Shown here piece by piece: positions 16,989-52,534 of a stretch of 64,000 nucleotides of DNA (positions are counted from its first letter, which is position 1; the number at the start of each line of letters is the position of its first letter). The stretch spans positions 62,001 to 126,000 of the forward strand of contig NZ_JAAILA010000031.1 in NCBI RefSeq assembly GCF_010974825.1, written 5' to 3'. The notes beneath the pieces were generated by a model, which worked only from the letters and a program-made list of their open reading frames with translations, did not search any database and was not told the DNA's origin. Origin of the DNA: Aeromonas rivipollensis. GTDB lineage: Bacteria; Pseudomonadota; Gammaproteobacteria; Enterobacterales; Aeromonadaceae. Both the position numbers and the translations under genes were made by a program.

Positions 16989-17243
16989 AACGAAATACAA
17001 TCGGTGAGCAATATCCGGGAGCTAACCGGCACGGGCCCACCCTCCTGTGTCGGCCCGTGTCGCGGGATCATGAGGGCTGGCGGGCGCCAGCATGGCAGCA
17101 AGGGGGCAACCGGGTATCCTGGCCCCTTGGTGAAGTGGAAAGGGATTGTGCGGACAGGTCGGTGATAAAAAGAGAGTGATGGGCGAGGAGTGGTGGAGAG
17201 CGGTCTTCTCCCCTCGGTTCTGGGGGCGCAGGAGTTCAAACGC

Positions 17244-17271
17244 AAAAAACCGACCCTGAGGTCGGTTTTTT
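17244..17271 (-). terminator. Terminator of the third tRNA-Ser tail unit
   Basis: Stem CCGACC/GGTCGG with flanking A and T runs, nearly identical to the terminator directly after tRNA-Ser at 17587-17613. It follows the degenerate tRNA tail ending at 17278. Confidence 0.8.
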
Positions 17272-17277
17272 ATAATT

Positions 17278-17297
17278 TGGCGGTGGGTCGGGATTGA
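17278..17297 (-). repeat. Degenerate tRNA-Ser 3'-end copy (tail unit 3)
   Basis: On the minus strand ATCCCGACCCACCGCCA resembles the last 17 bases of tRNA-Ser(GGA) and ends in CCA, then runs into an A/T-rich stretch and a terminator, exactly as the real gene does. It lies 160 bp beyond tail unit 2. Confidence 0.7.
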
Positions 17298-17392
17298 CTC
17301 GCGCCATCCCTGGCGCTCGCCCTGCGGCTGTCCAAGGGGGCTGTCCTGCCCCCTTGTCGAACCAGGGTTAGAACCGAGCCGCCCCTCACCGG

Positions 17393-17436
17393 ATAAAGTA
17401 AAAGGGCCTGTCTTGCGACAGGCCCTTTTACTTTAT
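17393..17436 (-). terminator. Long terminator hairpin of tail unit 2
   Basis: Perfect 20-bp stem (17393-17412 with 17417-17436) and a 4-nt loop. An almost identical hairpin follows the second tRNA-Ser at 52413-52456. Confidence 0.85.
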
Positions 17437-17437
17437 T

Positions 17438-17454
17438 TGGCGGTGAGGGAGGGA
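17438..17454 (-). repeat. Exact copy of the tRNA-Ser 3' end (tail unit 2)
   Basis: Seventeen bases, TCCCTCCCTCACCGCCA on the minus strand, are identical to the 3' end of the tRNA-Ser gene at 17620-17707, 182 bp away in the same orientation. The preceding CGAATC also resembles the T-arm. No other part of a tRNA is present. Confidence 0.85.
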
Positions 17455-17586
17455 TGATTCGCCACTGCGTGGCTCACCCCTTAGGGGCGGCCGTTGGCCG
17501 TTCATCGCAGCAAGCTGCTCTGCTCGAACCCGGCGAGGGTTCTCCCCCTCCCTCCATGGGCATCAGGTTTGCGGTGCCCCCAGATG

Positions 17587-17613
17587 CAAAAAACCGACCC
17601 TGAGGTCGGTCTT
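17587..17613 (-). terminator. Terminator directly after tRNA-Ser (copy A)
   Basis: Stem 17594-17599 with 17604-17609 followed on the minus strand by six Ts. Confidence 0.85.
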
Positions 17614-17619
17614 TCAATT

Positions 17620-17707
17620 TGGCGGTGAGGGAGGGATTCGAACCCTCGATACGTTGCCGTATACACACTTTCCAGGCGTGCTCCTTCAGCCACTCGGACA
17701 CCTCACC
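17620..17707 (-). tRNA. tRNA-Ser(GGA), copy A
   Basis: Class II tRNA of 88 nt including encoded CCA. Acceptor arms GGTGAGG and CCTCACC pair, the anticodon loop CTGGAAA gives GGA, the variable arm is long, and the T-loop is GGTTCGAATCC. Identical in sequence to the gene at 52324-52411 on the other strand. It is preceded by its own promoter and followed by two tail-repeat units. Confidence 0.97.
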
Positions 17708-17779
17708 AAATTTTTGACTGCTGTTTAACGTGTTCAATCGCCACGTGGTTCGTTGCGCTGCTGCGCTGGAACGGGGCGT

Positions 17780-17808
17780 AATTTAGGGGAAAGCTGACTC
17801 GGGGTCAA
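17780..17808 (-). promoter_or_regulatory. Promoter of tRNA-Ser copy A
   Basis: Minus-strand TTGACC (17803-17808) and TAAATT (17780-17785) with a 17-bp spacer, followed by a GC-rich discriminator typical of stringently controlled stable-RNA promoters. The -10 region and its surroundings are shared with copy B. Confidence 0.75.
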
Positions 17809-17884
17809 ACACTTTTCCCCTTATTTTTCAGAATCTTTATCGAATGCCTATCCCTTGCACAGAATGCCGGTTTTTTAAACCGGC

Positions 17885-18502
17885 TCAGGGTTTGTCCAAA
17901 ATGATCAGGCTGTCGGGCAACTCGTTTTGATCCCGGGTCGCCGGAAATGCATCGGTCAGTATGGCGCTGGTGCGCTCCACGCACTCGAGGAAGCCCTGCT
18001 CCACCTCCTTGTTGCGCACACGCACCACGAAGTCGTCGATGATCAGCTGCCACTGCGCGTTGTCTATGTGCTGGGCTATGCCGTCATCCACCAGGATCTC
18101 CACATAGTGCTCCGCCACCGAGACGAAGATCAGCACCCCGAGCCGGTCGCGGGTGCGGTGCAGCCCCTGCTCGACAAATTGCAGGCGGGCCATCAGTGCA
18201 GCCCTGTGCTGACGCACCTTTTTCGGGATCAGCCGCATCTTGATGGGGGTCCAGTGGAACAGCAGGCTCAGCAGCAACCAGACCGACCACTGCACCAGCA
18301 GGATCTCGTACCAGCCGAGCCAGAAACCGAGCTGGAACACCAGCAAGGGGGTGAGCATGGCCAGCAGCGCCGCCCAGAGAGTGGGAATGTAGCGATACCC
18401 ATCGCTGGCCGGAGCCAGCACTGTGACCAGTTCAGCATCAGTCTCTAGCTCCGCTTCGCGCACCTTGGCTTGAAGCGTGTGGAAGAACTGTTTAGAAATC
18501 AT
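17885..18502 (-). CDS. TPM-domain membrane protein
   Basis: A 205-residue protein with an N-terminal half-TPM region, two central membrane helices (about residues 40-90, WAALLAMLTPLLVFQLGFWL and following) and a C-terminal part with GVLIFVSVAEHYVEILVDDGIA, the hallmark of TPM (TLP18.3/Psb32/MOLO-1) domains. There is no signal peptide, so the domain is probably cytoplasmic or membrane-held, unlike the secreted YgcG type next to it. It is the third gene of a lemA-ygcG-TPM cluster. Biochemical role unknown. Confidence 0.8.
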   Translation of the reverse strand: MISKQFFHTLQAKVREAELETDAELVTVLAPASDGYRYIPTLWAALLAMLTPLLVFQLGFWLGWYEILLVQWSVWLLLSLLFHWTPIKMRLIPKKVRQHRAALMARLQFVEQGLHRTRDRLGVLIFVSVAEHYVEILVDDGIAQHIDNAQWQLIIDDFVVRVRNKEVEQGFLECVERTSAILTDAFPATRDQNELPDSLIILDKP

Positions 18503-47558: not shown

Positions 47559-47576
47559 GTGCCGCGAATACCTTTA

Positions 47577-47738
47577 AGTAGAGGCGCGCTGCCTATGAGT
47601 AACCGAGCGGAGGGTGATGCCTGCGATGCTCGATGAAAGGAGTCGGCGCCGAAGTGACCAGGCCATCATACCGGGTTGCTGGTTCTGCATCGAACAGGTG
47701 CAGGACTGCCATAGTCATCCACTATGGAGCGCTACCTG
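47577..47738 (+). ncRNA. Lysine riboswitch (L box) aptamer
   Basis: The conserved blocks of the LYS element appear in order: AGAGGCGCGCTGC, GAGTAA, GAAAGG, GGCGCCGAAG, TGGTTCTGCAT, GACTGCCATAGTC and GGAGCGCTACC. GTAG near 47579 pairs with CTAC near 47734 to close P1. It senses lysine and controls the carrier gene that follows. Confidence 0.95.
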
Positions 47739-47784
47739 AAGGGGCTGAGGAGTATGCCCGCCCTGGGTTTTGTTTCTTTGATCC

Positions 47785-52229: not shown

Positions 52230-52323
52230 GGTGATGTGCACAAGTGGCTGCCAGCCGATGAAATCGGCAAGAAAGCACGCAGCGCGTGCTACGCAAGCCA
52301 CAGGCAGATGACTGAAACAAATT
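52230..52323 (+). ncRNA. Structured segment in the leader of tRNA-Ser copy B, possible decayed tRNA
   Basis: The first 21 bases match the 5' end of tRNA-Ser at 17 positions and occupy the place where copy A has its tRNA. The rest does not encode a tRNA but can fold as a three-way junction: outer stem 52244-52249/52296-52301, hairpins 52254-52259/52263-52268 and 52274-52280/52284-52290, all perfect. Copy A has no equivalent. Whether it is a decaying tRNA, a small RNA or a processing signal is open. Confidence 0.5.
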
Positions 52324-52411
52324 GGTGAGGTGTCCGAGTGGCTGAAGGAGCACGCCTGGAAAGTGTGTATACGGCAACGTATCGAGGGTTCGAATCCCTC
52401 CCTCACCGCCA
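52324..52411 (+). tRNA. tRNA-Ser(GGA), copy B
   Basis: Identical over all 88 nt to the gene at 17620-17707, with anticodon GGA and encoded CCA, but in the opposite orientation. Preceded by a promoter about 165 bp upstream and followed by the same 20-bp hairpin seen in tail unit 2 of copy A. Confidence 0.97.
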
Positions 52412-52412
52412 A

Positions 52413-52456
52413 ATAAAGTAAAAGGGCCTGTCGCAAGACAGGCCCTTTTACTTTAT
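52413..52456 (+). terminator. Terminator directly after tRNA-Ser copy B
   Basis: Perfect 20-bp stem (52413-52432 with 52437-52456) with a GCAA loop. This and the next 45 bp repeat the copy A sequence at 17350-17436 in inverted orientation almost without change. Confidence 0.85.
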
Positions 52457-52511
52457 CCGGTGATGGGCGGCTCGGTTCTAACCCTGGTTCGACAAGGGGG
52501 CATGATGGTCC

Positions 52512-52534
52512 GGTTAAATCCAGACCCGCCGCCA
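52512..52534 (+). repeat. Degenerate tRNA-Ser 3'-end copy after tRNA-Ser B
   Basis: GGTTAAATCCAGACCCGCCGCCA resembles a T-arm plus acceptor 3' half ending in CCA, 123 bp after the CCA of tRNA-Ser B, and is followed by a terminator as in copy A. Confidence 0.6.

Follow-up and report, generated by a model that had tools for sequence, protein, structure and literature searches.

A tRNA-Ser-hosted array of the RtT family in Aeromonas, and the match between RtT tails and the tRNAs that they follow

Introduction

The repeat unit of the tyrT locus of Escherichia coli is 178 bp long. The rtT RNA was first reported in 1991 (as cited in the accessible parts of PMC4986893 and PMC2965389), and its role is, as far as could be found in the accessible parts of the literature, still merely suggested. 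From the portions of the respective papers that were available, RtT relatives of Actinobacillus give northern signals (PMC4986893), the transcriptome of EHEC contains 3357 reads for RtT_1 and 3, 22 and 30 reads for RtT_2, RtT_3 and RtT_4 (PMC5331693), RtT is one of the RNAs that increase at low temperature in Thioalkalivibrio (PMC8092127), and a tandem GA motif is present in RtT (PMC7657543). In the open-access literature we found no statement of a rule relating the tail of these elements to an anti-tail, or of members with a 5S rRNA tail; since the search was mostly confined to open-access papers, with most subscription papers outside it, this absence is weak evidence of novelty.

Here we describe an array of two repeat units that follows a tRNA-Ser(GGA) gene in a window of 64,000 nucleotides, by which we mean the whole stretch of Aeromonas rivipollensis DNA that was analysed; the source genome is a draft of 4.53 Mb in 56 contigs. 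The array belongs to the RtT family, known from E. coli tyrT, with tRNA-Ser as its host, and in this membership it is of an already known kind. We have compared it with RtT elements from related and distant genomes with respect to the origin of their tails, the pairing of the tail with the 5′ arm of the element, and the places in which the core of the element is found.

Results and Discussion

Layout of the array

The array, its host tRNA and the downstream copy of tail plus terminator lie within positions 17242-17707 of the window, and their features are listed in Table 1 together with those of a second tRNA-Ser(GGA) locus in the same window. An earlier note on this DNA, made from the sequence and its reading frames, had described a tRNA gene followed by two copies of its own 3′ end. 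This description is borne out: the repeats are recovered with tail spacings of 182 and 160, and the two units are bracketed by copies of tail plus terminator at 17586-17638 and 17242-17295. A 21-nt repeat is identical at 17435-17455 and 17617-17637, with a 71% copy at 17275-17295, while the exact 16-nt tail is present at 4 sites in the source genome, namely 3 tRNA-Ser(GGA) genes (L003, L005, L006) and 17438-17453. The nearest named match to the array is a record of Aeromonas caviae (84% identity over 87% of the query). The gene whose leader lies beyond the array is named motA from its sequence; elsewhere in the window Rfam reports a lysine riboswitch (47571-47742, 124.8 bits).

Table 1. Features of the array and of the second tRNA-Ser(GGA) locus, in window coordinates.
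Feature	Position	Strand	Support
tRNA-Ser(GGA), host RNA gene; 3′ tail at 17620-17636	17620-17707	-	ARAGORN; Rfam tRNA
Terminator-like hairpin 1, 3′ of the tRNA	17588-17614	-	Repeat search; fold z -5.1
Unit 2, RtT: anti-tail arm, core hairpins, tRNA-Ser tail with CCA	17438-17566	-	RF00391 55.3 bits; R1 77.4 bits
Anti-tail arm GAGGGAGGG, reverse complement of CCCTCCCTC in the tail	17546-17554	-	Script; RF00391 alignment; family-wide covariation
tRNA-Ser 3′ tail, exact 17-nt copy with CCA end	17438-17454	-	Repeat search
Terminator-like hairpin 2, perfect 20-bp stem	17393-17436	-	Repeat search; fold z -9.2
Unit 3, divergent RtT with degenerate tail	17278-17397	-	R1 37.0 bits, E 4.8e-9
Terminator-like hairpin 3, near copy of hairpin 1	17244-17271	-	Repeat search; fold z -5.3
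Downstream direct copy of tail plus terminator	17242-17295	-	blastn, 87% over 55 columns
Second tRNA-Ser(GGA), then hairpin 2 copy and truncated unit 3	52324-52411	+	

Each tail had also been said to be followed by a terminator. A strong hairpin does follow every tail (none of 200 shuffles folds as well, for each of the three), but a generic terminator scan of 17200-17900 lists a single site (+ strand) and no minus-strand site, perhaps because the stems of the three hairpins extend into the T-runs. Two of these terminators had been called nearly identical, which holds for hairpins 1 and 3 (a common 34-nt repeat at 91% identity); the middle hairpin differs from both. The short hairpin and GARTCA motif that had been seen before the tails is recognized here as the last hairpin of the RtT fold. 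A promoter scan of the same interval gives 1 promoter-like site, upstream of the tRNA, with 0.4 expected by chance, and hairpin 1 would be expected to stop most transcription ahead of unit 2.

Family membership and distribution

Unit 2 matches Rfam family RF00391 (RtT) well above the cut-off of 45 bits (E 4.6e-8 over the window). For unit 3 cmscan with Rfam does not list RtT even at E≤1; it is found by R1, a covariance model built from 84 elements whose training set contains unit 2 and not unit 3, and, falling below the Rfam listing while being matched by R1, it is filed here as a relative of RtT only. An RtT element is expected to repeat, at its end, the 3′ terminus of the host tRNA; the copy is exact over 17 nt in unit 2 and degenerate, 71% over 21 nt, in unit 3. 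A tyrT array in the strict sense would have tRNA-Tyr as its host; with tRNA-Ser(GGA) in that place, the locus is an RtT array, but no tyrT array. Folded alone, unit 2 gives a weak signal, with a z-score of -2.06 (5 of 200 shuffles as good), and unit 3 a moderate one, with -3.06 (2 of 200).

The likeness to E. coli tyrT and rtT that the earlier note had pointed out therefore goes beyond resemblance, as unit 2 is above the RF00391 cut-off and RtT occurs at other tRNA-Ser loci in the genus. Nor are the units the product of random decay, which had been set against a real array, in view of the RF00391 match and of the R1 E-value for unit 3. Conservation in related genomes, the lack of which was to speak for decay, is found in part: RF00391 has matches in 16 of the 36 genomes of the genus, source genome included. 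Over wider samples it has matches in 21 of 61 relatives (E≤0.01; 20 above cut-off), 66 of 369 genomes of the class (E≤0.001; 24 above cut-off) and 38 of 398 genomes of the phylum (E≤1e-5; 30 above cut-off), the class- and phylum-scale searches having been run with strict filters that lose weak matches.

Further elements were reached with a structure pattern. The contig scan with this pattern returned at least the matches listed, with many chance matches among the real ones, and a subset with the core signature was picked from it. R1 has matches in 9 of the 12 genomes reached in this way (E≤0.01), with none in the other 3. In the phylum to which one Kiritimatiellae genome belongs, it has matches in 16 of 194 genomes (E≤1e-5, counting this genome itself). 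Of 16 pattern-reached elements that we inspected, most of them from this wider group, many but not all have tails that fit the preceding tRNA (Ser, Pro and Thr are examples). An RtT-like element with a tRNA-like tail was also seen in a contig labelled as a Clostridia MAG (L314, RGIG1738), with no tRNA found nearby; it may be real, or the contig may be mis-binned.

Phages have no match to the DNA of unit 2. A structure-like pattern occurs in 8 viral contigs, of which 5 carry an RtT-like element (3 with a full tRNA-like tail, 1 with a partial tail, 1 ended by the contig edge) and 3 look like chance; no tRNA lies within 1500 bases of any of the 8 matches. The array query matches 110 plasmid records, one of which covers at least 80% of the query; the E. 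coli ones listed cover only its first 98 bases, and the best-matching record has the size of a chromosome.

The tail matches the tRNA that it follows

The relationship between tails and neighboring tRNAs was analyzed in 215 matches, corresponding to 201 distinct elements; 25 of these have no tRNA in the fetched DNA, and 176 do. The analysis excludes 19 weak rows of the class search, two rows of the phylum search and the repeat listings. The number of mismatches over a 16-nt tail in these 176 elements is 0 in 125, 1 in 16, 2 in 6, 3 in 5 and 4 or more in 24, so that the tail is within 1 mismatch of the tRNA that it follows in 141 of 176 cases. Eight tRNA types are represented among the hosts of the 147 elements with at most 2 mismatches: Ser 57, Gln 31, Lys 22, Tyr 21, Pro 6, Arg 5, Asp 3 and Glu 2. 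Where tails have at most 2 mismatches and an upstream tRNA is present, the nearest one is of the type of the tail in 140 of 144 elements. The match also extends to the species: tails have a mean of 0-0.5 mismatches to the tRNA of their own species, and for the six tRNA types with at least 2 host tails and at least 5 elements each, the mean is 0-0.21 to the element's own tRNA versus 1.0-3.9 to the same tRNA type elsewhere. Past the tail, the 15 bases that follow the element and those that follow the tRNA have at most 2 mismatches in 45 of 138 cases, and 8 or more differences in 65.

Overall, the RtT tail matches the tRNA that it follows. The 24 of 176 elements whose tails are unlike the nearby tRNA count against this rule; among the 49 elements without a local fit, 24 are within 2 mismatches of some known tRNA tail.

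The 5′ arm and the core

Pairing between the 5′ arm and the tail was studied in an alignment (A1) of 84 diverse elements, comprising 83 of 115 eligible ones and that of the window, all with at most 2 tail mismatches. In the 10-pair helix formed by arm and tail 82.6% of the cells are paired, versus 46-54% when the strands are slid (n = 84), own-tail pairing totals 688 versus a permuted maximum of 606 (0 of 10,000 permutations reach it), and an arm pairs on average at 8.19 of 10 positions with its own tail, at 7.45 with tails of the same host type and at 6.62 with those of other types; all these pairing figures lean upward, because the search models include the anti-tail helix and A1 was chosen at ≤2 tail mismatches. 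The helix contains 139 double-change cells versus a shuffled mean of 53.6 (0 of 500 shuffles reach it); on another of the five covariation measures, the number of pairs with a double change, the value is 8 versus 6.8 in shuffles, and 80 of 500 shuffles reach it. The 5′ arm is a matching anti-tail that changes with the tail. The arm often resembles a reverse copy of the T-arm of the host; as an example, for Lys one may compare GGCAGGATGAGAACCTGC with the reverse complement TGCAGGATTCGAACCTGC.

The cores are rich in hairpins closed by GNA triloops (1.84 per core versus 0.12 in mononucleotide shuffles; 131 cores). RNAalifold recovers only 3 pairs from A1, probably because MAFFT misaligns the variable hairpins. 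In the structure of A1 made by hand the second core hairpin is out of register, with 34.7% of it paired, and the number of pairs with a double change over the whole structure is reached by 110 of 500 shuffles. A strand test comparing G-T with A-C cells gives 41 versus 13 over three helices together; for the anti-tail helix, in which many Ser rows are misregistered, the figures are 81 versus 56. Folding as RNA is weakly favoured by this test. Cores on different tRNAs of one genome have a mean identity of 0.704, versus 0.643 for cores of different family and host, and the closest core is in the same genome in 18 of 50 cases. This is modest support for a rapid spread of cores between the tRNAs of a genome, and we make no claim to that effect.

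A proposed module that borrows the 3′ end of its neighbor

In our preferred interpretation, to which we assign a probability of roughly 0.6, the array consists of RtT-family modules that borrow the 3′ end of the neighboring RNA, are matured by the enzymes of the host RNA, and have their tails kept by recombination. Each unit is composed of four parts: the anti-tail arm, core hairpins often closed by GNA, the host tail ending in CCA, and a terminator-like hairpin of its own. As both tail and anti-tail follow the host RNA, the two strands can pair into a terminal helix similar to that of T-arm and acceptor, with a CCA end. Transcription of the unit would occur by read-through or from its own promoter, and the enzymes of tRNA maturation would then free a compact RNA, about 130 nt long, that bears the host 3′ end. 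As the tail/anti-tail helix carries the mature 3′ end of the host, the same enzymes that finish the host probably finish the RNA of the unit. Recombination between tail copies is probably what keeps the tails alike; it could also let units come and go at tail boundaries, with the anti-tail keeping up via compensatory change or copying across the hairpin. What the sequences themselves establish is the fold, the agreement of tail and anti-tail with the host, the tandem arrangement, the hairpin behind every tail, and units that are present in one relative and absent from another; the steps of maturation and recombination are inferred.

Elements with 5S tails and cores in other places

Not all occurrences of the core are of this type. 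In Serratia rubidaea, 12 of 23 model matches have a tRNA tail within 2 mismatches; the remaining 11 include two after 5S rRNA, two in the 23S-5S spacer (L409 and L415), four dispersed copies, two within a lysine tRNA array that have no matching tail, and one elsewhere. The two that follow 5S rRNA, in the rrn operons of L409 (550-1350) and L408, are RtT-type elements with a 5S tail: they end in the 5S 3′ end plus trailer, with 28 identical bases (by script). This 5S-tail pattern was found in 3 of 119 genomes of the order of Serratia. In the two other genomes (L418 and L419) tail and arm are unlike those of Serratia and match the upstream 5S end of their own locus, over 22 and 29 identical bases; Rfam confirms the 5S end in L418 and reports none in L419, where it was recognized by eye and script only. 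A 5S-tailed RtT design, as these few cases suggest it, would be the most surprising result of this study.

The four dispersed copies of S. rubidaea (L411-L414) have constant inverted arms, and no Rfam RNA family is above cut-off in these stretches; they are a repeat family related to the RtT core. At four other loci (L111, L091, L098, L059) a near-complete tRNA body carries the core inside its T-loop, with a second core in the D-loop in L059. None of these four copies has a normal CCA end; that of L091 was compared by eye with the true tRNA of its locus. Matches that proved to be the genuine upstream tRNA are left out of this count.

Cores in such places are what one would look for if the core were a selfish module similar to REP/BIME sequences, lodging at or in stable RNA genes, with tails and anti-tails as by-products and no gain for the host. 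Nine of the 23 S. rubidaea matches lie away from tRNA tails, the two of the lysine array being additional to these, and the insertions in tRNA bodies and the excess of GNA triloop hairpins point the same way, as does the link between rtT and BIME/REP sequences made in the accessible parts of PMC2965389 and PMC12306157. We nonetheless hold such a selfish origin to be rather unlikely: no transposase or target-site duplication was noticed in an unsystematic look, cores on different tRNAs of the same genome are just modestly more alike, and the covariation of the anti-tail exceeds what a passive by-product would display, unless copying across the hairpin maintains it.

Gain and loss of units, and islands at the same tRNA

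Downstream of the second tRNA-Ser(GGA) of the window, the sequence has one difference from the array in the first 91 bases (by script), and the truncated copy of unit 3 (52455-52534) scores just 10.7 bits with R1 (E 0.13). Since hairpin 2 and unit 3 start directly after this tRNA, unit 2 seems to be an insertion at the tail, or its absence here a loss. Upstream of the same gene, region 52230-52320 contains a 5′ fragment of tRNA-Ser (GGTGATGTGCACAAGTGGCTG, 52230-52250) that breaks off at the D-loop and gives way to hairpin-like sequence; the break lies near the point at which the D-loop of the L059 copy is interrupted by its second core.

In three relatives (L369, L367, L389) the array is absent: their alignment with the window covers the tRNA with its first terminator and resumes at the leader of the motA gene; a fourth (L370) has no alignment to the gene leader. 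Across nine genomes of the genus, source genome included, 6 of 27 tRNA-Ser(GGA) loci carry RtT at E<1e-3, for 11 units in total. One further unit of the unit-3 type (38.3 bits) is on contig 3 of the source genome (L305, 1300-2200), where the tail ahead of it has no tRNA and a tyrosine integrase gene lies beside it. This unit apparently marks the far end of an island that entered a tRNA-Ser gene; the near end would be, from the similarity of the end sequences judged by eye, the tRNA-Ser of contig 9 (L003, 1100-1320). An integrated island that carries a tyrosine integrase appears to have separated the third tRNA-Ser(GGA) from its RtT unit. In L382 an integrase gene lies directly 3′ of the same tRNA, and L363 and L379 start with similar sequence there. 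Pfam scans of island proteins covered L305 and L382.

These islands have to be considered in connection with a further suggestion of the earlier note, that the repeats are scars of repeated integration, that is, copies of an attachment site at the tRNA 3′ end. The tails are indeed direct repeats, and islands with tyrosine integrases make use of the same tRNA tail at other places in the genus, integration at tRNA-Ser(GGA) being seen in L305 and L382. For the units themselves the suggestion is unsupported and we have rejected it as highly improbable: they are small (160-182 bp), they have a covarying fold in common with elements of other phyla, and no island or integrase is bounded by the tail copies of the array, between which there is no integrase-sized ORF among those of at least 60 aa. 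That the repeats are decaying remnants of tandem tRNA-Ser duplicates is barely credible and was likewise rejected, because, although tandem tRNA-Ser genes occur (L028) and a truncated unit follows the second tRNA-Ser at 52455-52534, the core is unlike tRNA and one fold with compensatory change extends across tRNA types and phyla, a covariation that strongly disfavours random decay.

RtT as a possible wider class

The module that borrows the 3′ end of its neighbor may be more general than its tRNA-Ser version. Its hosts in Pseudomonadota include eight or more tRNA types; genomes of the Verrucomicrobiota type add others, and 5S rRNA is a host as well. With these in mind we propose, tentatively and at somewhat less than even odds, that RtT is a wide bacterial class in which a core takes the 3′ end of the preceding stable RNA, rebuilds its terminal helix, and is matured or protected by the enzymes acting on that 3′ end, possibly buffering them. 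If tail and anti-tail follow the host across tRNA types, 5S rRNA and phyla, the RtT family has a definable rule; and if this rule is true, the purpose of RtT (a substrate of the maturation enzymes, a decoy, or a parasite of stable-RNA transcription) becomes testable by tail swaps. That the 3′ ends of tRNA and 5S rRNA can be duplicated beside their own genes also matters for the mapping of small RNAs and for attachment-site calls.

Comparison with known systems

Integrative elements that insert at the 3′ end of a tRNA gene also exploit this tail and leave it as a direct repeat; they differ from the array in being far longer and in carrying an integrase, whereas the tails of the array enclose no ORF of integrase size. 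REP/BIME sequences are short dispersed hairpins, to which rtT is reported to be similar in the accessible part of PMC2965389, whereas the units of the window carry a copy of the 3′ end of the neighboring RNA. Arrc20 and Arrc21 of Actinobacillus pleuropneumoniae are RtT candidates, members of RF00391 located beside tRNA genes (Asn, Lys) and detected by northern blots, but described, in the available text of PMC4986893, as upstream of these genes and as putative trans-acting sRNAs, with no word there on tail identity. The E. coli tyrT repeats (RF00391) likewise have a tRNA 3′ tail at the end of the unit and tandem units of similar length; the array of the window differs from them in having tRNA-Ser(GGA) as a host instead of tRNA-Tyr, and a terminator-like hairpin of its own in each unit, and to this known design the present comparison adds tails and anti-tails that match their host, be it one of eight tRNA types or 5S rRNA.
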